DNA of 64,000 nucleotides from Leucobacter sp. CX169 (GTDB lineage: Bacteria > Actinomycetota > Actinomycetes > Actinomycetales > Microbacteriaceae): NCBI RefSeq assembly GCF_017161405.1, contig NZ_CP071051.1, positions 372,001 to 436,000 on the forward strand, written 5' to 3'. The notes under the pieces are model-generated. The model was not told where the DNA came from. It saw only the letters and a list, made by a program, of their open reading frames with translations, and made no database searches. The stretch's first letter is position 1. Each line of letters starts with the position of its first letter. Of the stretch, positions 30,019 to 42,312 are shown one piece after another. Made by a program: the position numbers and the translations under genes.

Positions 30019-31458
30019 ATGGCGAACCCGTTCGAACGCAAGCACCGAATCGCAATCCTTGGCGGCGGCCCTGGCGGGTACGAGGCGGCCCTCGCGGGCG
30101 CGCAGCTCGGCGCAGAGGTCACCCTGGTCGAGCGGGCGGGGGTCGGCGGCTCTGCCGTGCTGACCGACGTCGTCCCCTCGAAGAGCCTGATCGCGACGGC
30201 CGAGGCCGTGAGCGCGGTGCAGGGCGCCGGGACGCTCGGCGTGCAGGCCTTCCTGCCCGGACAGGGGGGTCACCCCATCCGCCCCGAAATCGCGGTCAAT
30301 CTCGCCGCGGTTAACCAGCGCCTCATCGCGATGGCTGGCGCGCAGTCGACCGACATGCTCGCAACTCTCACCGAGGCTGGCGTGCGCGTCGTGCAAGGCG
30401 AGGGGCGCCTCGACGGCCCCGACGCTGTGATCGTCTCGACCGCGCTCGGCACAGATGGCACCGACTTTGAGCGCCTCGAGGCCGACACGATCGTCGTCTC
30501 GGTCGGCGCGAGCCCCCGCGAACTCGACTCGGCAAAGCCCGACGGCGAACGCATTCTGACGTGGACCCAGCTCTACGACCTGAAGGCGATTCCCGAGCAC
30601 CTCATTGTTGTCGGATCGGGCGTCACCGGAGCCGAGTTCGCCAGCGCCTACCGCGCGCTCGGCGCCGAGGTCACCCTCGTGTCGAGCCGCGACCAGGTGT
30701 TGCCTGGTGAGGACTCCGACGCCGCCGCGGTGATCGAGAAGGTCTTCAAGCGCAGCGGCATGCACGTGCTGAACAAGTCGCGGGCCGAGTCGGTCACGCG
30801 CACCGAGACCGGTGTGCGCGTCGAGCTCGCCGACGGCCGCGTCGTCGAGGGCTCGCACTGCCTCATGGCGGTCGGCTCCATCCCGAACACCACAGGCATC
30901 GGACTGCGTGCCGCGGGCGTGCAGCTCACTGAGAGCGGCCACATCCAGGTGAACAAGGTCGCGCGCACCTCGGTGCCGTCGATTTACGCGGCAGGCGACT
31001 GCACGAACTTCTTCCCGCTGGCCTCGGTCGCCGCGATGCAGGGGCGCACCGCGATCATGCACGCGCTCGGTGACTTCGTGCGCCCGATCGACCTGAACAA
31101 CGTCGCCTCGAACGTGTTCACTCAGCCCGAGATCGCCACGGTCGGCTGGAGCGAGCAGGATGTCGCCGAGGCGCAGGACATCTCGCGCACCGTGATGCAG
31201 AAGCTCCCGCTCGCGATCAACCCGCGCGCCAAGATGCTCGGCATCACCGACGGCTTCGTCAAGATCTACGCCTCGCAGGGATCGGGCGTGGTCGTCGGCG
31301 GCGTGGTCGTCGCCCCGAAGGCGAGCGAGCTGATCTTCGCGCTCGCGCTCGCGGTTGAACATCGTCTCACCGTTGATCAGGTCGCGTCGGCCTTTACGGT
31401 CTACCCGTCACTCACCGGATCGATGGGTGACGCCGCCCGGGCGCTGCACGTTCGATGA
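30019..31458 (+). CDS. NAD(P)H-quinone dehydrogenase (lipoamide dehydrogenase-like, no redox cysteines)
   Basis: A 479-residue pyridine-nucleotide disulfide oxidoreductase homologue. FAD fold RIAILGGGPGGYEAALAGAQ is at about residues 8-27, and the NAD fold is LIVVGSGVTGAEFASAYRAL. The usual CxxxxC pair is missing: the segment reads GVGGSAVLTDVVPSKSLIAT, and the C-terminal active-site histidine region reads VYPSLTGSMGDAAR. This is the actinobacterial group described as NAD(P)H-quinone dehydrogenase (mycobacterial LpdA type), not a true lipoamide dehydrogenase. It overlaps the next gene by four bases. Confidence 0.88.
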   Translation: MANPFERKHRIAILGGGPGGYEAALAGAQLGAEVTLVERAGVGGSAVLTDVVPSKSLIATAEAVSAVQGAGTLGVQAFLPGQGGHPIRPEIAVNLAAVNQRLIAMAGAQSTDMLATLTEAGVRVVQGEGRLDGPDAVIVSTALGTDGTDFERLEADTIVVSVGASPRELDSAKPDGERILTWTQLYDLKAIPEHLIVVGSGVTGAEFASAYRALGAEVTLVSSRDQVLPGEDSDAAAVIEKVFKRSGMHVLNKSRAESVTRTETGVRVELADGRVVEGSHCLMAVGSIPNTTGIGLRAAGVQLTESGHIQVNKVARTSVPSIYAAGDCTNFFPLASVAAMQGRTAIMHALGDFVRPIDLNNVASNVFTQPEIATVGWSEQDVAEAQDISRTVMQKLPLAINPRAKMLGITDGFVKIYASQGSGVVVGGVVVAPKASELIFALALAVEHRLTVDQVASAFTVYPSLTGSMGDAARALHVR

Positions 31459-31838
31459 GCGAGCTCATCGGCCGCCGCGCGTTCCTCACTGGAGTTGGGA
31501 TCGCCGGACTTGGCGCCGCCGCCCTGCTCGTGGGCTGCGCGCCGACCGAACTCACCCCCGTGCCTTCCGACGACGACGCGAAAGACATCGCCGTCACCGT
31601 GCAGGTATCGGACAACCGATTCGAGCCGGCTGAGGTCACGATCAAGCCGGGCCAAGCGGTGCGCTGGGAGTTCCTCGGCACGGCCAAACACGACGTGGTC
31701 TCCGACGACCGGAGCTTCGTGAGCGAGCTCATGCGGGACGGCAGCTACACCCACGTTTTCGATGCGCCGGGCGAGTTCCCGTACCTGTGTTCCATCCACG
31801 CGGAGATGCGTGGCGTCGTTACGGTCGCCAGCCTCTAG
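31455..31838 (+). CDS. Cupredoxin (plastocyanin-like) lipoprotein
   Basis: A 127-residue exported copper protein. The N-terminus has a Tat-like RRAFLTG followed by a hydrophobic stretch and lipobox LVGC near residue 28. Candidate type 1 copper ligands are His in TAKHDVVS and Cys, His and Met in YLCSIHAEMRG. It overlaps the quinone dehydrogenase gene (ATGA), so the two are coupled. An electron-transfer role at the outer membrane face is plausible but inferred. Confidence 0.82.
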   Translation: MSELIGRRAFLTGVGIAGLGAAALLVGCAPTELTPVPSDDDAKDIAVTVQVSDNRFEPAEVTIKPGQAVRWEFLGTAKHDVVSDDRSFVSELMRDGSYTHVFDAPGEFPYLCSIHAEMRGVVTVASL

Positions 31839-33515: not shown

Positions 33516-34298
33516 CTATCGCGTCAGGAAGCGGTCAATCTCCGCGACGAGGTTCCAGCGCCCGCTATTCACGGCGAGGTCTCGGGGCGAAACCCCGCCG
33601 CCCGAGGGCAGCCGCGGGTCCGCCCCGGCCTCGAGCAGCATGCGGACGACCTGCGCCGCCCCGTCCCCGCCGTCCCCCAGCACGATCGCCTCGTGCAGGG
33701 CGGTCCAGCCAAAATTGTTCATGTGGTCGAGCGGCACCCCCGCATCGATCAGGATCCGCACCGTGTCGATGTGGGCGTGTTCGCTTGCGGGGATGAGCGC
33801 GGTTCCCGCGAATCGATTCAGGCTGTTGACGTCGGCTCCGTGTGCCAGCGTCGCCACGAGGATCTCGTTGAATCCCTCGGCGCCGGCGTAGAGAAACGCC
33901 GAGTCCTCGATGCCGTCCTTCGCGTTCGGGTCGGCGCCCGCGTCAAGCAGCAGCAGTGCGATCTCGATCGAGTTCGCCTTCGTCGCCGCGACGAGCGGGG
34001 TCTGACCGAGCTCGTTCCGGCTCTCCAGGTCCGCCCCCGCCGCGATGGCCGCATCCGCAGCGGGCGCGTCGCTCGCGCCCACTGCGACGAACAATGCGGC
34101 GGTCGCCGATGCGCGCTCCTCGGCGGTGGGCGGCGCGGGCATGGGTGCCGGCGCCGGCTCGGACGCGGGCGCCGGCTGCGTGGGGGCCGCCGGGGCGTCC
34201 GCCGCGCAGGCGGTGGCGGCCAGCGCGACGGACGCGGTCAGGGCGAGGGAGATCGCCGCCCGACGGAGCCCGCTGCCCCGCTTGCTACGCCAGGGCAA
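33516..34298 (-). CDS. Exported ankyrin-repeat protein 1
   Basis: About 260 residues. A basic segment ([12 protein letters not shown]) and the hydrophobic stretch [17 protein letters not shown] form a signal peptide with a weak lipobox, followed by an Ala/Pro linker. Four or five ankyrin repeats follow: [56 protein letters not shown] and [20 protein letters not shown]. The start is uncertain; the TTG at 34298 overlaps the end of the GlcG-like gene by 14 bp (TTG 34310 is also possible). It is probably coupled to that gene and acts outside the membrane in protein contacts. Confidence 0.78.
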
Positions 34299-34842
34299 CT
34301 TCAGCTTCAATCGCCGCGAGGCCCGCCGCCGCGCACTGTTGGTCCGCCATACCCGACGGTGCCCCGCCAACCCCGATACCTGCGATCGAGGCGTCGCCGA
34401 GTTTCACGCTGACCCCACCCGGCATGAAGAGCGTGCCGGGGAGGCGGTGCAGGCCGTTCTCGTCCGCGCGCTCCACTAGGTCGCTCGTGCTCGCACCGAA
34501 CGCTGCGGAGGTGTACGCCTTCTGCTGGGCCGCCTCGATGGTGTGCTCGGCGGCGTTGTTGCCGCGCACCAGCGCCTGCAGCTGGCCATTGCGGTCGACG
34601 ACCGCGACGGTCACGAAGCCTAGACCGTCGGCCTCGCACTGCGCGAGCGCGGCCTGGGCGGCGACGGTCGCCGTCTGTGCGCTCAGGCGAGCGGACGAAA
34701 CGGTGTTGCCCTCGTGCACCACGGTCGCGGCAGCTGCCGAGGTTTGCGGCTTCTCCGCCGTGGCGCTCGTGCAGCCAACGAGCCCGGCAGATGCGGCCAG
34801 AAGCGTTGCGGCGGTGACGATCAGTGTGCGGTTCGTAGTCAT
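34285..34842 (-). CDS. GlcG/HbpS-like haem-binding domain lipoprotein
   Basis: A 185-residue lipoprotein with lipobox LVGC near residue 24. The GlcG/HbpS fold covers about residues 50-180: AQAALAQCEADGLGFVTVAV followed by VDRNGQLQALVR, then AQQKAYTSAAFGASTSDL, LPGTLFMPGGVSV and AGIGVGGAPSGMADQQCA. In Streptomyces, HbpS is an extracellular haem-binding protein that modulates the SenS/SenR two-component system. Here a kinase and regulator are divergent, 188 bp away, so an equivalent sensor role is inferred. Haem binding itself cannot be read from the sequence. Confidence 0.82.
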   Translation of the reverse strand: MTTNRTLIVTAATLLAASAGLVGCTSATAEKPQTSAAAATVVHEGNTVSSARLSAQTATVAAQAALAQCEADGLGFVTVAVVDRNGQLQALVRGNNAAEHTIEAAQQKAYTSAAFGASTSDLVERADENGLHRLPGTLFMPGGVSVKLGDASIAGIGVGGAPSGMADQQCAAAGLAAIEAEVALA

Positions 34843-34979
34843 GTGAATCCCAGCTGCTTTGTGGTGGATACCCGTGTACAACGGGCCGGAGCCCCGCAGT
34901 CGATCGCGGTGCTCCGTCGTGCATACCCACTCTCCTCGGCACAATACCGCCCCGCATCGACCGATCGGCCCTCATGCGC

Positions 34980-34995
34980 TCAATCAATTGATTGA
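34980..34995. promoter_or_regulatory. 16-bp palindromic operator, copy 1
   Basis: TCAATCAATTGATTGA is a perfect palindrome in an otherwise GC-rich region. Its centre lies about 43.5 bp before the ATG of the histidine kinase gene. A copy with one mismatch lies about 44.5 bp before the second ankyrin gene. The NarL-type regulator encoded here is the obvious candidate to bind it. Confidence 0.7.
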
Positions 34996-35030
34996 TCCAT
35001 TCGCCCGCGGCGTGGGCAATACTGGGGGCG

Positions 35031-36209
35031 ATGGCCATCCCACTCTCACCCGACGCGCGCGCCGCCCGCGGCCTCGCCGCGATGAACCTCGCGGTGGATA
35101 TTGGCTTCGCTGCCCTCCTGCTGATCTGCTCACTCCGCTACTTCAGTAACCACCCGTTCGGGTCGCTCGGCGTGCTCGTGCTCGTGTTGGCTCTGGGTTC
35201 GGGGGCCGCATACGCCTTCGCCGCCGTGGCCGCGCGGGCAGCAGCGGGTCTCGCCCGGCAGCGCGCAGGGATCCTGATTGCGACGGGGCTCTGGCTGCCG
35301 CTCGTGGTCATCGCACCCTCGTACGGCTGGTGCGCGTTCGCGCTCTTTGTCGCGGTCTATCGGGTGCTGCGCGGGGCATCGGCGCTGATCGCATCGGCGC
35401 TGATCGTGATTTCAGTGAGCGTCGGCCTGCTGCTGATGTCGAAGGGCGAGGACCTCGGGCTGGTTCTGGGCCCGTTCCTCGGCGGGTTTGTGCTGACTCT
35501 CGCCTATCGTGGGCTCACCCAGTCGCTCGACGACGGCCGTCAACTGATCGCCCAGCTCGTCGACACCCGGGCGCAGTTGGCGCAGTCGGAGCGAGAGGCG
35601 GGCGGACTGGCCGAACGCGGGCGGGTGGCGAGCGAGCTCCACGACACTGTGGTCCAGCGCACCGCAAGTGCGTTGCTGCTTTTGGAGTCGGAGGAGCTGC
35701 AGCGAGGCTCTTCTCCCGCGGTGGTGCAGGCGCAGGAGTTACTGCGGGTGAGCCTGACGGAGACCCGGCAGCTCATGCACGGGCTCGTTCTGGCCGGGGT
35801 GGCGCGCGAGCCGCTCGCCGCCTCGATGCAGGAGCTCGGGCGCAAGTACGACGCGTCGGTCGAGGTCATCGGTGACGAGCGCGTGGTCGCGGAGTCCACC
35901 GCACATGCCTTGCTGCGCGTCGCCCAGGAGGCGCTCATCAACGCGAACAAGCACGCGGACGCCCCGGCACGCAAGCTCACGCTGACCTTCTTCGGCGACG
36001 CGGTGGGTGTGGACATCGCCGACAACGGCGTGGGTTTCGATCCTGATCTCCGTGACCCGAGCGGTGCCGGGTATGGCCTGCGCGCCATGGCTTGGCGGGT
36101 CGAGAATCTGGGCGGAGTGTTCACCCTGGAAAGTGCCGCGGGTGCCGGCACGGTGGTCGCGGGAGTGATTCCCAACCATCGAAACGAGCCGGCGGAAGGC
36201 GCAGCATGA
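35031..36209 (+). CDS. Sensor histidine kinase, HisKA_3 (NarX/DesK/SenS type)
   Basis: A 392-residue membrane kinase. About five hydrophobic segments fill residues 18-160. The H box is VASELHDTVVQRTASALLLL with the phospho-accepting His in ELHDT, and the ATPase domain has ANKHADAPA, VDIADNGVGFDPD and GYGLRAMAWRVENLGG. There is no large extracellular domain, so sensing probably relies on membrane or exported partners. ATG 35031 follows GGGGG; an earlier in-frame TTG at 34992 lies inside the operator and is rejected. Its stop overlaps the regulator start. Confidence 0.9.
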   Translation: MAIPLSPDARAARGLAAMNLAVDIGFAALLLICSLRYFSNHPFGSLGVLVLVLALGSGAAYAFAAVAARAAAGLARQRAGILIATGLWLPLVVIAPSYGWCAFALFVAVYRVLRGASALIASALIVISVSVGLLLMSKGEDLGLVLGPFLGGFVLTLAYRGLTQSLDDGRQLIAQLVDTRAQLAQSEREAGGLAERGRVASELHDTVVQRTASALLLLESEELQRGSSPAVVQAQELLRVSLTETRQLMHGLVLAGVAREPLAASMQELGRKYDASVEVIGDERVVAESTAHALLRVAQEALINANKHADAPARKLTLTFFGDAVGVDIADNGVGFDPDLRDPSGAGYGLRAMAWRVENLGGVFTLESAAGAGTVVAGVIPNHRNEPAEGAA

Positions 36210-36832
36210 TCCGCATCCTGCTCGTCGACGATCACCCCGTGCTGCGCCACGGTATTCAGTCGCTGCTCGCGACGCAGCGCGACTTCGAGGTCGTCGCGGA
36301 TGCTGGGAACGCGGCAGACGCGGTGGCGCTCGCCACGCGCGAGAGTGTTGACGTTGTTCTCATGGACCTGGACCTCGGTTCGGGCGAGGAGGGCGGGATC
36401 GCGGCCACGCGCAAGATCGTCCGCGCCTGTCCCCAGACGCGCGTCATTGTCTTCACGGCGTACGACTCGGACGCGGACATCGTGCGCGCGGTCGAGGCTG
36501 GTGCGGTCGGCTACCTCGTCAAGGACAGCCGCCCGGCCGAACTCTTCGGGGCGATTCGGGCGGCGGCGGGTGGGGCGGCGGCGCTCGCCGGCCCGATCGC
36601 GGCGCGGCTGCTCGAACGGATGCAGCACCCGGGGGACGTCCTCACCGGGCGCGAGCTCGAGGTGTTGGAGCTCGCCGCCGCCGGCCTGGCGAATCGAGCT
36701 CTCGCCGCGAAGCTCATGGTGAGCGAGGCGACCGTGAAGACGCATCTGCACCATATTTTCACCAAGCTGGACGTCGATAGCCGGCAGGCGGCGGTCGCGA
36801 GCGCGATCAAGAGCGGGCTCATTCGGCTGTAG
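36206..36832 (+). CDS. NarL/LuxR-family response regulator
   Basis: A 208-residue regulator. The receiver domain has acidic residues in ILLVDDHPVLRHG, the phospho-accepting Asp in VVLMDLDLGS (about residue 54), Thr in VIVFTAYDSD and Lys in GYLVKDSRP. The LuxR-type helix-turn-helix is in LTGRELEVLELAAAGLANRA followed by LMVSEATVKTHLHHIFTKLD. The start overlaps the kinase stop (ATGA). It likely acts on the 16-bp palindrome at 34980 and 37769. Confidence 0.92.
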   Translation: MIRILLVDDHPVLRHGIQSLLATQRDFEVVADAGNAADAVALATRESVDVVLMDLDLGSGEEGGIAATRKIVRACPQTRVIVFTAYDSDADIVRAVEAGAVGYLVKDSRPAELFGAIRAAAGGAAALAGPIAARLLERMQHPGDVLTGRELEVLELAAAGLANRALAAKLMVSEATVKTHLHHIFTKLDVDSRQAAVASAIKSGLIRL

Positions 36833-36841
36833 CTGGGTCGT

Positions 36842-36874
36842 GCGCGAATCGGCGGCCTACCCGCCGAGCGCGCG
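36842..36874. terminator. Possible bidirectional hairpin between regulator and second ankyrin gene
   Basis: GCGCG and CGGCGG pair with CCGCCG and CGCGC around CCTAC in the 24-bp convergent gap and the last ankyrin codons. There is no T tail, and the assignment rests on symmetry and position. Confidence 0.4.
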
Positions 36875-37732
36875 AATCACTTGCGCTGAGGCGAGGTGCC
36901 CCGCGTGCTCCGCGATCTCGAGGGCGCTGCGCCCCTGAGTGTCGACGCTGTCTGCGGGAGCGCCCGCCCGCAGCGCGAGGGCCACCCCGTTCGCGTCCCC
37001 TACCGCGGCCGCTGCGAGCAACGCCGGCACCGGATCGGCCGGCAGCGGCGTGGCCGCAAGCGCCTCGAGCAGCGCGGCCTGGGTGGGGTACCCCTTCGAG
37101 TAGGCCATCTGGAGCGGAGTGAGGCCCTCGAATCCGGAGGGTGCCTGGAACTGGACGCCGCCGGCGACGAGCACCCGCACGGTCGCGTGGTAGGTCGGGT
37201 CGTCGCGGCCGAGCCAGACCGCCTCGTGGATCGCCTGGTAGCCGATCCGGTTGACGTGATCGAGGGGAGTTCCCGCTTGGATCAGCTCGCCCACGACGTC
37301 CCAATGCCCACGCTCCGCGGCGCGGATGAGGCCGGTGCCGACCCAGCTGTCGAGGTCGTGCACGTTCGCGCCGTGTGCGAGCGTGAGGCGCAGCAACTCG
37401 AGCCGGCCCTCACTCGTGGCGATGAGATACGCGGACTGTACGGTGTCGTCCTTCGCGTTCACGTCGGCGCCCTGTTCGATGAGCTGTTTCGCGGCGTCGA
37501 CGTCGTTGGCCCAGGCCGCGGCGCGGAGGCGAGCGTCGAGCTCGGCCTGGGGCAGCTCTGGCGGTACCTCGGTGGGTTTGGGCGCAGGGGTGGGCGAGGG
37601 GGTCGAAGCCGGCGCGGACGGTGAAGGTGTCGTCTGCTCGGTGGCGATGGGCTCGGCCGCGCAGGCGGAGAGCGCCAACGGCAGCGCGAGCAAGAGGAGG
37701 GCCGGCCAGCGCCGACGGGTCGAAGTGTTCAC
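36857..37732 (-). CDS. Exported ankyrin-repeat lipoprotein 2
   Basis: About 291 residues. The signal peptide STRRRWPALLLLALPLALSAC has lipobox LSAC, followed by a Ser/Pro-rich linker and six or so ankyrin units: AWANDVDAAKQLIEQGADVN, SAYLIATSEGRLELLRLTLA, GTGLIRAAERGHWDVVGELI, GYQAIHEAVWLGRDD and GRSALEIAEHAGHLASAQVI. GTG 37732 is chosen because TAGCGT lies seven bases upstream and the palindrome then falls at the same distance as before the kinase gene; GTG 37741 is the alternative. It is a paralogue of ankyrin protein 1 and probably part of the same regulon. Confidence 0.82.
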   Translation of the reverse strand: MNTSTRRRWPALLLLALPLALSACAAEPIATEQTTPSPSAPASTPSPTPAPKPTEVPPELPQAELDARLRAAAWANDVDAAKQLIEQGADVNAKDDTVQSAYLIATSEGRLELLRLTLAHGANVHDLDSWVGTGLIRAAERGHWDVVGELIQAGTPLDHVNRIGYQAIHEAVWLGRDDPTYHATVRVLVAGGVQFQAPSGFEGLTPLQMAYSKGYPTQAALLEALAATPLPADPVPALLAAAAVGDANGVALALRAGAPADSVDTQGRSALEIAEHAGHLASAQVIRALGG

Positions 37733-37768
37733 ATCTTGCACGCTACGTCGCGGGCGAGGCGCCCCGCG

Positions 37769-37784
37769 TCAATCAATTGATGGA
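37769..37784. promoter_or_regulatory. 16-bp palindromic operator, copy 2
   Basis: TCAATCAATTGATGGA matches copy 1 at 15 of 16 positions. Its centre is about 44.5 bp before GTG 37732 of the second ankyrin gene, the same placement as copy 1 before the kinase gene. This supports a shared activator site overlapping the -35 region. Confidence 0.65.
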
Positions 37785-37883: not shown

Positions 37884-39074
37884 CTACGTTGCGGACTCTC
37901 CCGCATCGCCGGTGTCGACGAGCAGCACGCCAGAGGATATGTCCCACATCATTGCGACGTTGTCCCCGCGGTTGTGGATGCGTGCGTCCTGACCGAGGCG
38001 AACCGCACCCTCAGTGCCGTCAGGAAGCCTCACCGTGTATCGCCGAGACGCTCCCAGGTAGGTGACGTCGAGGATGGTGACAGGAATCGAGTTCTGTGAT
38101 TCGCCGATTGGCGTGCCCGCGGACTCTAGTCGCAGATTCTCGGGACGGATGAGGATCGCAAGGTTCTCGTGTGCCGACTGCCCATCTGCAACCACTCGGT
38201 GCCCGGCGATCTCGAGCGCGGTCTGTCGCTCGCCAACCGTGATCCCCTTCCCCAGGAGCACGGTGGACTCGCCGAGGAACCGCCCGACAAACAGCGTCTG
38301 CGGTGCCTCGTACAGGTCCTCCGACGTCCCGACCTGCTCGATCCTGCCGTTGTTGAAGACTGCGATGCGGTCCGACATGGACAGTGCTTCCTCCTGATCG
38401 TGCGTCACGTACACAAACGTCGATCCCACCTCGCGGTGGATGCGCTTGATCTCGGTCTGCAACCACTCGCGGAGCTTCTTGTCGAGGGCACCGAGGGGCT
38501 CATCCATCAGCAGCACGCGCGGTTCGTACACGAGCGCTCGCGCCAGAGCGACTCGCTGCTGCTGGCCGCCGGAGAGTTCTGACGGGTAGCGATCTCCGAA
38601 GTCGCCCATTCGCACCATGCCGAGTGCCGTCGCGACCTTCTCTTTTTGCGCGGCCTTGCTGAGCTTGCGGCGCTGCAGGGGGTACGCGATGTTCTCGGCG
38701 ACGGTCTTGTGTGGGAACAGGGCGTAGTTCTGGAACACCATGCCGATGTCGCGCTTGTGCGGTGGGAGCTTCGCCACGGGCTTGCCATAGATATGCAGCA
38801 GGCCTTCCGTGACCGAGGTGAAGCCCGCGATCATGTTGAGCGTGGTCGTCTTGCCTGACCCGGACGGGCCGAGGAAGGTCATGAACTCGCCCGGCTCGAT
38901 CACCAGGTCGATCTCGTCGACCACGGTGCTCTCGCCGTAGCGCTTCGTCACCGAGTTCAAGCTGATCCCGGCGTCGCCGATGGCGTGGATCGCGGAGGTG
39001 TTCAGACCCTCAGTCCGCAGCTCCTGCTCATGTCCTTCGGGCAGGGGGTTGTCGTTGTGTGTCAGAGCGTTCAC
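37884..39074 (-). CDS. ABC transporter ATP-binding protein, PotA-like (system 3)
   Basis: A 396-residue ATPase. Walker A GPSGSGKTT is at about residues 68-76, then LSGGQQQRVALARALVYEPR and VLLMDEPLGALD, and FVYVTHDQEEALSMSDR. The TOBE-like C-terminus is complete. An N-terminal extension of about 30 residues (NDNPLPEGHEQELRTEG) is unusual for PotA. The GTG start overlaps the preceding permease stop by four bases. Last gene of the minus-strand DBCA unit. Confidence 0.92.
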   Translation of the reverse strand: MNALTHNDNPLPEGHEQELRTEGLNTSAIHAIGDAGISLNSVTKRYGESTVVDEIDLVIEPGEFMTFLGPSGSGKTTTLNMIAGFTSVTEGLLHIYGKPVAKLPPHKRDIGMVFQNYALFPHKTVAENIAYPLQRRKLSKAAQKEKVATALGMVRMGDFGDRYPSELSGGQQQRVALARALVYEPRVLLMDEPLGALDKKLREWLQTEIKRIHREVGSTFVYVTHDQEEALSMSDRIAVFNNGRIEQVGTSEDLYEAPQTLFVGRFLGESTVLLGKGITVGERQTALEIAGHRVVADGQSAHENLAILIRPENLRLESAGTPIGESQNSIPVTILDVTYLGASRRYTVRLPDGTEGAVRLGQDARIHNRGDNVAMMWDISSGVLLVDTGDAGESAT

Positions 39075-39856
39075 GCTACCGGTCGCTTTCTTTTCCGCGT
39101 GGCGAACTGCGCGATGAGCATCACGATCACCGAGGTGAGCATCGTGATTACCGCCACCGCGGCCACTGTTGGGTCATTGCTTTGCGTGACGCTGTTGAAG
39201 ATTTTCACTGGCAGCGTCTGCAAGGAGGGGCTCTGAATGAAGAGGGACAGAATTACTTCATCGAACGAGGTGACGAAGGCGAAGAGTGCACCCGCAGTCA
39301 CCCCCGGCGCGATCAAGGGCAACGTAATGCTGAAGAACGTTTGTACCCGCCCTGCACCCAGGCTTGCCGAGGCCTGTTCGAGTCGAGGGTCAACCCCCTG
39401 TAGCGATGCCATCACGTTGGTGATCACGAGCGGCATCGACACGATGGTGTGTGCAAGGACGAACCCGGGGAGCGTGCCCAGGAGGTCGAGCCGCAGGAAC
39501 AGTGAGTAGAGGCCGACTGCGAGCACAATGCCAGGCACGATCAGGGGGAGGAGGAAGTAGCCCTCAAGCAGGCCCTTCCCGCGAAACTTCACCTTTGCCA
39601 AGCCCAGGGAAGCGAGCACGCCCACCGACGTTGCAATCACCATGGTGAGCACGGCGACCTGGAGCGAGGAGAAGAGTGCCTTCATCCAGTTCGGGTCCGT
39701 GAAGAAGTTCTCGTACCACCTGGTCGAGAACCCCTTGGGCGGGAAGTTGAACGACGAGGCCTCGTTGAACGACATCGGCACGATGACGAGCGTGGGAAGG
39801 ATCAACCACAGCACGATGATGACGGCGAATGCGCCGAGCAGCCGTTTCGTCGTCAT
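39071..39856 (-). CDS. ABC transporter permease, PotC-like (system 3)
   Basis: A 261-residue six-helix membrane protein. The EAA-type loop is in LEQASASLGAGRVQTFFSIT followed by LPLIAPGVTAG, and FVTSFDEVILSLFI near the C-terminus matches the system 2 PotC-like protein. Its start overlaps the end of the partner permease by one base. Confidence 0.92.
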   Translation of the reverse strand: MTTKRLLGAFAVIIVLWLILPTLVIVPMSFNEASSFNFPPKGFSTRWYENFFTDPNWMKALFSSLQVAVLTMVIATSVGVLASLGLAKVKFRGKGLLEGYFLLPLIVPGIVLAVGLYSLFLRLDLLGTLPGFVLAHTIVSMPLVITNVMASLQGVDPRLEQASASLGAGRVQTFFSITLPLIAPGVTAGALFAFVTSFDEVILSLFIQSPSLQTLPVKIFNSVTQSNDPTVAAVAVITMLTSVIVMLIAQFATRKRKRPVA

Positions 39857-40770
39857 CAGCGATCCACCCCCGGGAACAGACTGCCGTTCCTATTGAATCG
39901 CGACACCAAGACGAGGATCGCGATCGTGCAGGCGAGCAGAAAAATACCGAGCGCAGTGCCCTGGCCCCACATGAGGAAGACGCTGATCTGCTGCTGGATG
40001 AGCGCCGAAATCATGATCTCCTTCGACGAACCCAGCAACGCCGGGATGATGTAGAAGCCGAGGCCCAGGATGAAGACCGTCACTCCACCCGAGAAGATTC
40101 CGGGCTTGGACAGCGGCAGATACACCGTGAAGAAGGCCGTCACCGGGTTTGCCCCGAGGTTGGATGCGGCGGGCAACAGACGCTTGTCGATCTTTGACAT
40201 CGATGAGTACAAAGGCAGCACCATGAACGGGAGCAAGACCTGGCTCATGCCGAGGGCGACGCCGAACGTCGTGCGGATCAGCGGGATCGGGCCGATCCCG
40301 AACCACACCTCGAGTAGGCCGTTGATCGGTCCGGTGTCTTGGAGCAACACCATCCAGGCGAGGGTGCGCACCAGGATCGAGGTCCACAGCGGCATCATGA
40401 TGAAGAGCTGCATCATGTTGCGTGTGCGGTCCGACACGATGGTCATCAGGTAGGCGTAGGGGTAGGCAAGCAACAGGCACACGAAGGTGACCAGGATCGC
40501 TGTTCCGAAGGTGCGGAGTACGACGTTGAGGTTGGCCTCGGTGCTAAAGAGCCAGACGTAGTTCTGCAGTCCCGGCACGGGATCGGTGACGGAGCGAATA
40601 AACACATCGATGAGCGGCGCGAGGAAGAACAGGGTAACGATCATGAATGCGGGTATCAGCAGAAGGAACGGACGCCAGTTCTTTGGCCCCCGAGTCTTCG
40701 CCCCTGCCGCATCCGTGCCGGAGGCGCCGTCCACTCGCGCGACGCCCCCGGTAGCAGTGTTTTCGGTCAT
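39856..40770 (-). CDS. ABC transporter permease, PotB-like (system 3)
   Basis: A 304-residue membrane protein. It has the EAA-like loop LLPAASNLGANPVTAFFTVY followed by LPLSKPGIFSGG, and the segment AYPYAYLMTIV is shared with system 2. ATG 40770 (MTENTATGG) is chosen; upstream in-frame starts reach into the binding-protein gene. The N-terminal 25 residues before the first helix are polar and cytoplasmic. Confidence 0.92.
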   Translation of the reverse strand: MTENTATGGVARVDGASGTDAAGAKTRGPKNWRPFLLLIPAFMIVTLFFLAPLIDVFIRSVTDPVPGLQNYVWLFSTEANLNVVLRTFGTAILVTFVCLLLAYPYAYLMTIVSDRTRNMMQLFIMMPLWTSILVRTLAWMVLLQDTGPINGLLEVWFGIGPIPLIRTTFGVALGMSQVLLPFMVLPLYSSMSKIDKRLLPAASNLGANPVTAFFTVYLPLSKPGIFSGGVTVFILGLGFYIIPALLGSSKEIMISALIQQQISVFLMWGQGTALGIFLLACTIAILVLVSRFNRNGSLFPGVDR

Positions 40771-40775
40771 GGTGA

Positions 40776-41903
40776 TTAGTTTCCGGTCGCCCAGCCGGCC
40801 CATGCCGCAGAGAGTGCATCGTAGTTCTCGACCCAGAAGTCGACGTTGGGCGCGATTCCGGTATCCAGGTGCTCGGTGGTCATCCACTCAGCGAGCTGCT
40901 TATCCAGCTTCGGCTTGGCGTCAATGTTCACCCCGCCGTACGAGGTGAGCTCGCTCATCTTGGCCTGCTGCTCGGCGCCGATGGAGTAGTTCACCGCTGC
41001 GAAGGCGGCCTGCTTGTCCTTGACACCCTTCGGGATGCCGTTCGAATCGACCATGATCATCCACTGGTCCCACATCGGTGCAACCGGTGCCCCGGCCGCT
41101 GCGGCTCCGTAGCCGCGGCCCGACCAGACGAGACCCATCACCGCTTCTCCGGATTCAAGCTGCTGCTGCGCCTGCGCGCCAGTGGTCCAACCGATCACGT
41201 TGTCGCCGAGATCCTTGTACATGTCGAAGGCGCCTTCGATGTCGTCAGTCGACAGATCGGTGACGTCCTTGCCCTGCGCCGTGAGAGCAAACTCGACCGT
41301 CTGAGGATCGACGTAGGTGGACTGGCTCACGGTGCGCTTCCCGGGGAACTTCTCCGTGTCGAAGAAGTCGGCGGCGCTCGTGGGCGGGTTGTCCCCAAAC
41401 TTGTCGGTGTTGTAGACAACAACGAGGCCATACAGAATCTGAGGAACCATGCACTTGTCGGTGATCGTGCCCTCGGGCACCTTCGAAATATCGATCTGGC
41501 TGTAGTCAATCTCTTCGTACAGGGTTCCGCAGCCACGGGCGGTGTCGAACTGCGTCGTGTTCACGATGTCCCAGCTCACGTTGCCGGCGTCCACCATGGC
41601 CTTCAGCTTCCCGGCATCGAACGCGTCTTGGTTCATCGTCGCGCCGGAAGCCTTCGCGAACGGGTCCCAGAGTGCTTCGGTCTGGCCGTCCTGGAAGACT
41701 CCGCCGGACCCGGCGAACGTGAGTGTGACGCCGTCGAGCGCGCCGGCCTTGATCTCACCGGCGACGGGCGTGCCAAGGTTGTGATCTGCTGCGGGCTCCG
41801 GCTCGGAGGCTCCGCTACAGCCGACCAGAGTCAGCGCGAGGGCTGCCGCGCCAGCGACCAGACCCAGGCCTCGTCGAGCTTTTGTGTTGTTCACAGTGGA
41901 CAT
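40776..41903 (-). CDS. Polyamine-type ABC transporter substrate-binding lipoprotein (system 3)
   Basis: A 375-residue lipoprotein with lipobox LVGC near residue 29. LTFAGSGGVFQDGQTEALWD and WTTGAQAQQQLESGEAVMGL mark the same subtype as system 2. ATG 41903 follows GAGGAAG; an in-frame start at 41915 is possible. First gene of the minus-strand operon, divergent from the PucR regulator 409 bp away. Confidence 0.92.
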   Translation of the reverse strand: MSTVNNTKARRGLGLVAGAAALALTLVGCSGASEPEPAADHNLGTPVAGEIKAGALDGVTLTFAGSGGVFQDGQTEALWDPFAKASGATMNQDAFDAGKLKAMVDAGNVSWDIVNTTQFDTARGCGTLYEEIDYSQIDISKVPEGTITDKCMVPQILYGLVVVYNTDKFGDNPPTSAADFFDTEKFPGKRTVSQSTYVDPQTVEFALTAQGKDVTDLSTDDIEGAFDMYKDLGDNVIGWTTGAQAQQQLESGEAVMGLVWSGRGYGAAAAGAPVAPMWDQWMIMVDSNGIPKGVKDKQAAFAAVNYSIGAEQQAKMSELTSYGGVNIDAKPKLDKQLAEWMTTEHLDTGIAPNVDFWVENYDALSAAWAGWATGN

Positions 41904-42312
41904 GTGCTTCCTCACTTCATCGTGATGGATATCACCGACGACCCGGCAACTCGGTCGGTGCTCATCGGTGGTTTCAGTCGACCAGCCGGATCAGTTCGCC
42001 CGGCGGCTGCCCTGAAGCTACCAGCGAAATTCACCCAGACCATGGCCCCTGTGACCGCTTCGTTACCGCGTCAGCGATCTTTCATAGCTTCGTATACAGC
42101 CCGCTCTCGACATCGTACGAAGATAGGGATTTGGCGGCAGCGAGTGCGCATGGATCCCGCTCGGGCTCAGTCCTGCCTACGATGAGATGAGCAGCGATGG
42201 CAGTTCGAGGAGGAACGCGCATGGAAGTTGTGGACGTTGGGATGTCGCTTCGCGACAACTCCCGCGCGCCGCAATTCGATGCGGACCTCACGGCTGCGGC
42301 GGAACGGGACGC
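41904..42312. promoter_or_regulatory. Divergent control region, system 3 transporter/PucR
   Basis: This 409-bp region has no convincing gene. An inverted repeat CTTCGTA (42088-42094) and TACGAAG (42116-42122), in an AT-richer patch, is a candidate PucR site. TACGAT at 42178-42183 could be a -10 box, giving a leader of about 120 nt. A short in-frame upstream extension of the PucR frame begins at 42187 but has unconserved composition. Confidence 0.4.

Follow-up and report, generated by a model that had tools for sequence, protein, structure and literature searches.

What joins a GlcG/HbpS-like lipoprotein, a membrane sensor kinase, a NarL-type response regulator and two exported ankyrin lipoproteins that are encoded together in Leucobacter sp. 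CX169? The genes lie in a 64,000-nucleotide stretch of contig NZ_CP071051.1 (positions 372,001 to 436,000), hereafter the window, which also holds two copies of a 16-bp palindrome, one between the kinase gene and glcG and the other before the second ankyrin gene, ank2 (Table 1). A preliminary description had reported these five genes and both palindromes, all of which we find where it placed them, and had suggested that the palindrome is a site of the regulator and that the ankyrin proteins belong to the sensing system. From sequence comparison, we consider it likely that this palindrome is the site from which the NarL-type regulator activates three targets: the kinase-regulator operon, glcG-ank1 and ank2. 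The site is conserved at orthologous loci, stands at a fixed spacing to a putative -10 element and co-occurs with the kinase independently of linkage.

In the window, these two sites are the only ones at three mismatches or fewer, where dinucleotide shuffles expect 0.01, and they are also the only ones in the 2.94-Mb genome at up to two mismatches to the exact palindrome. The site is 25% GC in a window of 67.8%, in line with the GC-rich background first described. It has to be considered whether the two palindromes match by chance or through local duplication and have no function. The window contains six perfect 16-bp palindromes where about 2.5 are expected, which taken alone would count against an operator, and ank1 and ank2 encode paralogues (45% identity over about 146 amino acids). 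However, the shuffle expectation, the conservation across genera, the presence of the site before ank2 genes that do not lie beside the kinase and the constant spacing to the -10 element all speak against such an origin, which we regard as very improbable and reject on the shuffles, the ank2 site survey and the promoter spacing. The signal is recurrence and conservation, not perfect palindromicity as such.

The conservation of the palindrome was followed in 299 genomes of the family, source genome included. The exact 16-mer, allowing up to one mismatch, was matched in 11 of these, the source genome among them, and the 12 loci found with it in the ten other genomes carry none of the five module genes. 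Taken by itself, this outcome would point to a lack of conservation; the search missed the orthologous loci because the operator centre has changed in the orthologues. Searching with the kinase instead gave five orthologues, of which four belong to genus g15 and one to genus g18. They show 53-58% identity, the next match being at 41% or lower, and at the orthologous kinase-regulator loci the palindrome recurs as TCAAYC-N4-GRTTGA. Two of these genomes, G014 (L059) and G290 (L060), have the full gene set; the kinase-glcG intergenic region contains TCAACCGATCGGTTGA, and ank2 is preceded by a near copy of it. Across g15 (54 genomes), the kinase is present in 19 (E 1e-50 or better) and a perfect TCAAYCRWWYGRTTGA site in 21; the site is found in 19/19 kinase-bearing genomes but in 2/35 of those lacking the kinase; a backward control pattern matched one of the 54. 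Fisher's test of site against kinase gives p 1e-12, a value that serves as a guide only because the genomes are related. The pattern was written with four of the 19 in hand (G014, G290, G095 and G252), and the other 15 played no part in it.

The promoters of ank2 offer a test that is free of linkage. A near full-length Ank2 orthologue is present in 14 g15 genomes (51-68% identity), 11 of which carry the kinase, and in 10 of these 11 a site with no or one mismatch precedes ank2, 46-158 nt from the estimated start. In four of the ten, ank2 lies at the kinase locus (G325, G290, G316 and G014). In the remaining six it lies elsewhere: in G346 some 1.6 Mb from the kinase, in G317 some 14 kb from it, and in G323, G338, G337 (whose contigs are under 7 kb) and G252 on a different contig. 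The ank2 genes of the kinase-less genomes G315, G302 and G340 have no site (0/3), the best match showing 5-6 mismatches. Eleven further Ank1-like loci away from the kinase show no site at up to two mismatches, and two more Ank1-like matches lay outside the locus comparison. Site conservation, for ank2 also away from the kinase, places both ankyrin genes in the putative regulon, as had been supposed at the outset.

The position of the site suits an activator. A TANNNT element starts 22-23 nt after the palindrome in 11/11 ank2 promoters and in 16 of 17 promoters of a second type, described below, that precede genes for DUF4822 proteins; by chance, 0.02-0.04 would be expected per promoter for offsets 20-24. 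Five of six kinase promoters have [GA]ATACT at offset 22, read by eye. On the glcG side, GTYGATGYG is a possible -10 region of glcG-ank1, though it contains no TANNNT. In the window, the kinase and ank2 messages are probably leaderless because their start codons follow the predicted -10 by few bases, and leaderless starts would put the palindrome centre at about -42, the position typical of class II activators. The centre distances given earlier, 43.5 bp to the kinase ATG and 44.5 bp to the ank2 GTG, are right if ank2 starts at GTG 37732, and the early guess of an activator site overlapping -35 gains from the fixed spacing seen in the comparisons. Taken as a mechanism, the GlcG/HbpS-like lipoprotein would modulate the membrane kinase, on the precedent of HbpS, and the kinase would, as is usual for its family, phosphorylate the NarL-type regulator. 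A regulator dimer would then bind TCAAYC-N4-GRTTGA. From this site, which would overlap -35 and have its centre some 42 bp upstream of the transcription start, the dimer could activate the kinase-regulator operon, the divergent glcG-ank1 and ank2 in the class II manner. NarL-type class II activators share with this regulator the Response_reg and GerE architecture and a palindromic site overlapping -35; the operator sequence itself matches none that we know of, operator databases not being part of the comparison.

The recognition helix of the regulator follows the half-site between clades, with exceptions given below. In 21/21 regulators of the clade with TCAAYC sites, the helix is TVKTHLHH-like with H at its seventh place, which corresponds to a base-contacting lysine of NarL. 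The other 11 regulators of the tree set have A at this place, save for M in G676. The loci of a second family, f6, have A in 30/30, five of these genomes being common to the tree set. Nature thus offers, in this joint shift of half-site and helix residue, a ready way to probe how specific the regulator is.

At the level of the order, 396 genomes were searched with the kinase; matches of E 1e-50 or better came from the source genome and from seven genomes of f6, where glcG is divergent from the kinase in 7/7 and an ankyrin match is present in 5/7, one of them a fragment. Queried with an f6 kinase, 395 f6 genomes gave 69 matches, and our locus counts refer to the best-scoring 30 of these 69, which are not a random sample and overlap with five of the first seven; 37 of the 69 lay outside the examination. 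Among these best 30, glcG is present at every locus and an ankyrin match at 28, with the order glcG-ank1 kept. The match of L230 is a 68-residue fragment, the stretch of L213 ends before a possible ankyrin gene, and L222 (G711) gave no ankyrin match even when a longer stretch was included. A palindrome near TCAGCC-N4-GGYTGA precedes the kinase, with TANNNT 22-24 nt on, at 29 of the 30 loci, the exception being L213; this count was made without preference for candidates bearing TANNNT. In genus g50 the palindrome reads TCATCC-N4-GGATGA, with TAGCAT 22 nt on. The Arthrobacter sp. StoSoilB13 plasmid NZ_AP024649.1 gives matches to glcG, ankyrin, kinase and regulator, and its palindrome is TCAGCCAAAAGGTGGA with TAGCAT 23 nt on. 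Because this plasmid is the named case of the f6 type, f6 is probably Micrococcaceae and the window's family Microbacteriaceae. The palindrome is thus conserved at orthologues in g15 and, as a variant, in f6, and the conservation test set in the preliminary description came out in its favour.

The loci of g15 are more varied. Ankyrin genes stand beside the kinase in five of the 19 kinase loci: G014 and G290 have glcG, ank1 and ank2, G303 has glcG and ank1, and G325 and G316 have ank1 and ank2 with no glcG match. The expectation that the ankyrin genes would travel with the module is borne out in f6 (28/30) and, for genes beside the kinase, only in part in g15 (5/19). At the other 14 loci the site follows the regulator gene, with one gene intervening in G312 and G327, and the next gene after the site encodes a DUF4822 protein in 13 of the 14, that of G252 being cut by the contig end. 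This locus type was absent from the preliminary account. The locus of G017 (genus g18) is also of the DUF4822 type. DUF4822 occurs in 16 of the 54 g15 genomes, all of them kinase-bearing, so that only G014, G303 and G290 have the kinase but no DUF4822; a search of the source genome gave no match, though this search had no responding control. A tree of the regulators unites the DUF4822 loci in a single group (97/97); the g15 ankyrin loci stand beside it, and the source genome falls outside both. G316 has, on another contig, a DUF4822 gene with a perfect site before it, and in G325 a one-mismatch site adjoining ank1 precedes such a gene. The secreted DUF4822 proteins after the operator have one to three copies of the domain, and one of them (L063:2999-4555) has a weak LPXTG anchor match, below the Pfam cut-off.

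Several observations weigh against the proposed regulon. The genome counts are not independent, owing to kinship. A perfect site occurs without a kinase match in G335 (72% complete) and G342, and L208 of the latter carries none of the five module genes. In G301, ank2 has no site despite the kinase in that genome. The TANNNT element is found in 0/6 kinase and 0/6 glcG/ank1 promoters, the A helix goes with a TCAACC site in G003 and L234, and no site was recognised at the G024, G676 and G584 loci. Finally, at 14 of the 19 g15 kinase loci, glcG and the ankyrin genes do not adjoin the kinase. Some of these points would fit a palindrome owned by another regulator, whether a repressor of the TetR or MarR type or a NarL-type paralogue, with the kinase-regulator pair merely one of its targets. 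Sites without a kinase match in two g15 genomes would be expected of such a regulator, as would the one-mismatch TCAAYCRWWYGRTTGA places near an MMPL gene and a kinase (L118) and near ABC ATPase genes (G003, G017). However, the sites track the kinase-regulator pair both in g15 (19/19 against 2/35) and at ank2 (10/11 against 0/3), the recognition helix co-varies with the half-site between clades, with exceptions, and the -35 position suits an activator. We therefore hold ownership by another regulator to be improbable and prefer activation by the NarL-type regulator encoded at the locus.

The task of the module is less certain than its regulon; most likely it would be to sense haem or redox stress on the outer side of the membrane and to deal with it. 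We regard such stress as the likeliest signal, with about an even chance of being right. The solved structure nearest to the window GlcG is that of HbpS (3fpv, E 1.2e-28). The available text on HbpS names T113 as a haem residue, E78xxE81 as an internal iron motif and K108 as lying at the surface, and describes H28 as required both for octamer formation and for contacting SenS-SenR (PMC3754957). We surveyed 14 module GlcG proteins in HbpS numbering. T113 is T in 14/14, and two cysteines, at the positions of A45 and Y146, are likewise invariant. E81, K108, D141 and H28 are found in none of the 14, which tells against the module GlcG being a plain copy of HbpS, and the H28 position is R in all of them. 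The window protein keeps E78 and has Q for E81 and H for K108.

Clusters of the Streptomyces hbpS-senS-senR type have been reported in Arthrobacter aurescens and Leifsonia xyli in the accessible part of PMC4991794, and the core cluster is in that respect already known. As in HbpS-SenS-SenR, an exported PF03928 protein, a membrane kinase and a NarL-type regulator are encoded together. However, the present module adds exported ankyrin lipoproteins, the word ankyrin not occurring in that source as available, and its operator TCAAYC-N4-GRTTGA differs from the imperfect-repeat consensus CGGGCCGCGTCCCG given there for SenR (PMC4991794). Its GlcG is also a lipoprotein with two invariant cysteines and without H28, E81 or K108. 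Because these residue and operator features are unmet, we do not file the module as a member of HbpS-SenS-SenR; it would work like that system and is probably a relative of it. We found in the open-licence literature no description of a module uniting GlcG/HbpS, ankyrin proteins and a two-component system, which is not proof of absence.

Ankyrin proteins elsewhere have been described, in the portions of the sources available, as needed for catalase or as carrying haem, the examples being Cj1386 of Campylobacter jejuni, ank-katE of Leptospira and the cited AnkB of Pseudomonas aeruginosa (PMC7567364; PMC11442138). Compared by description, these are also small ankyrin-repeat proteins, some periplasmic, with ties to haem or peroxide, whereas those studied here are Gram-positive lipoproteins whose genes stand together with those of GlcG and a kinase. 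None of the nine window proteins scanned matched a catalase model, a scan that did not extend to 37884 onward or to the rest of the genome.

It may also be that the regulon is right and the signal is neither haem nor redox stress, with GlcG binding another small molecule or merely holding the complex together and the ankyrin proteins serving cell-envelope stress or binding surface proteins. The iron and oligomerisation residues of HbpS are lost in the module GlcG, the operator precedes secreted DUF4822 proteins of unassigned role in most g15 relatives, and the scanned window proteins include no catalase. A GlcG-fold protein, EfgA, is described as a formaldehyde sensor in what is available of PMC8153426, and one of the structures matched by the window GlcG bears the name EfgA. 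Against this stand the invariance of T113 and of the cysteine pair and the haem or catalase precedents of ankyrin proteins in the sources as available (PMC7567364; PMC11442138). We rate a signal of this other kind only a little below an even bet.

A wider picture can be drawn tentatively, and we think it rather less probable than not. In a widespread actinobacterial haem/redox relay on the outer face of the membrane, the two-cysteine GlcG and the ankyrin lipoproteins would form one receptor complex for the kinase, with the ankyrin proteins as the arm that binds haem or protein. The regulator would replenish the receptor through one operator, which in one lineage would have been re-targeted to secreted DUF4822 proteins. 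If true, such re-targeting would give the uncharacterised DUF4822 family a regulatory context. Even without this picture, the DUF4822 proteins gain a candidate regulator, and what began as an HbpS-like gene near a kinase is now a predicted regulon defined by its operator, promoter geometry, targets and range over two families. It also links an HbpS-type sensing system with surface ankyrin proteins, on which, to our knowledge, there is little work in Gram-positive bacteria.

Table 1. Features of the module in window coordinates; operators and -10 elements are predicted.
Feature	Position	Strand	Remarks
ank1, exported ankyrin lipoprotein	33516-34298	-	Several Ank models; lipobox; likely TTG start
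glcG, GlcG/HbpS-like lipoprotein	34285-34842	-	PF03928, 92 bits; lipobox; invariant cysteine pair
GTYGATGYG, glcG side	34953-34961	-	Conserved in 5/6 loci, by eye
Operator 1, between kinase and glcG	34980-34995	.	Exact 16-bp palindrome TCAATCAATTGATTGA
-10 of kinase operon, AATACT	35018-35023	+	22 nt after operator 1
Sensor kinase	35031-36209	+	Multi-pass membrane part, then HisKA_3 and HATPase_c; profile matches
NarL-type response regulator	36206-36832	+	Response_reg (PF00072) and GerE (PF00196); recognition helix TVKTHLHH
ank2, second exported ankyrin lipoprotein	36857-37732	-	Ank models; lipobox; GTG start from promoter comparison
-10 of ank2, TAGCGT	37740-37745	-	23 nt after operator 2
Operator 2, before ank2	37769-37784	.	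One-mismatch palindrome

The kinase and regulator genes are divergent from glcG-ank1, and ank2 is convergent to them. The 5' end of ank1 overlaps the 3' end of glcG and has no ATG; its start is likely TTG 34298, inside the end of glcG, and ank1 is probably translationally coupled to glcG. For ank2, GTG 37732 is a better start than GTG 37741, the in-frame codon chosen by the ORF program, because the latter overlaps the predicted -10. With the starts TTG 34298 and GTG 37732, GlcG, Ank1 and Ank2 all match the lipobox pattern G+LPP. An identity of the kinase-regulator pair as MadRS was considered and rejected on the NCBIfam cut-offs, MadR reaching 163.4 of 300 bits and MadS 78 of 500 bits.

At one mismatch, the wider pattern TCAAYCRWWYGRTTGA finds three further places in the genome (89410, 1678974 and 2133031), one of them inside a predicted gene. 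The place at contig position 89410 (L118:3411-3426, outside the window) is TCAACCTTTTGGTTGA and stands 59 bp upstream of a gene for an MMPL transporter, behind which comes a kinase paralogue. It may mark an additional target, or else belong to a paralogous regulator. In G003 (L067:4175-4190) and G017 (L115:4682-4697), the palindrome lies about 60 bp before ABC-transporter ATPase genes, which are 64% identical to each other and have another kinase-regulator pair behind them.

Other ankyrin genes occur outside the module. A third homologue in the source genome (L016, contig 1298070-1298645, outside the window) is 43% identical to Ank1 and has no palindrome nearby. Ank1 homologues of 49-59% identity occur in Agromyces and in seven alphaproteobacterial records (L048-L055), which suggests that these ankyrin proteins form a separate family, either old or spread by transfer. 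Ten proteins neighbouring such homologues are mixed (carboxylase subunits, a macro domain, a deaminase and others) and therefore give no functional clue. In one Hyphomicrobiales record a GlcG match adjoins an ankyrin match. At L150, L153, L158 and L159 of g15, Ank1-like genes adjoin a different response-regulator gene, 32-34% identical to the window regulator, a hint of another ankyrin-regulator pairing in that genus.

Near the module in the window, a pyridine-nucleotide-disulphide oxidoreductase gene is followed by a cupredoxin-domain gene (30019-31838), the start of whose product looks lipoprotein-like by eye. Adjoining ank2, the genes at 37884-41915 appear by eye to encode an ABC importer (ATPase, two permeases and a binding lipoprotein), perhaps for polyamines or iron.

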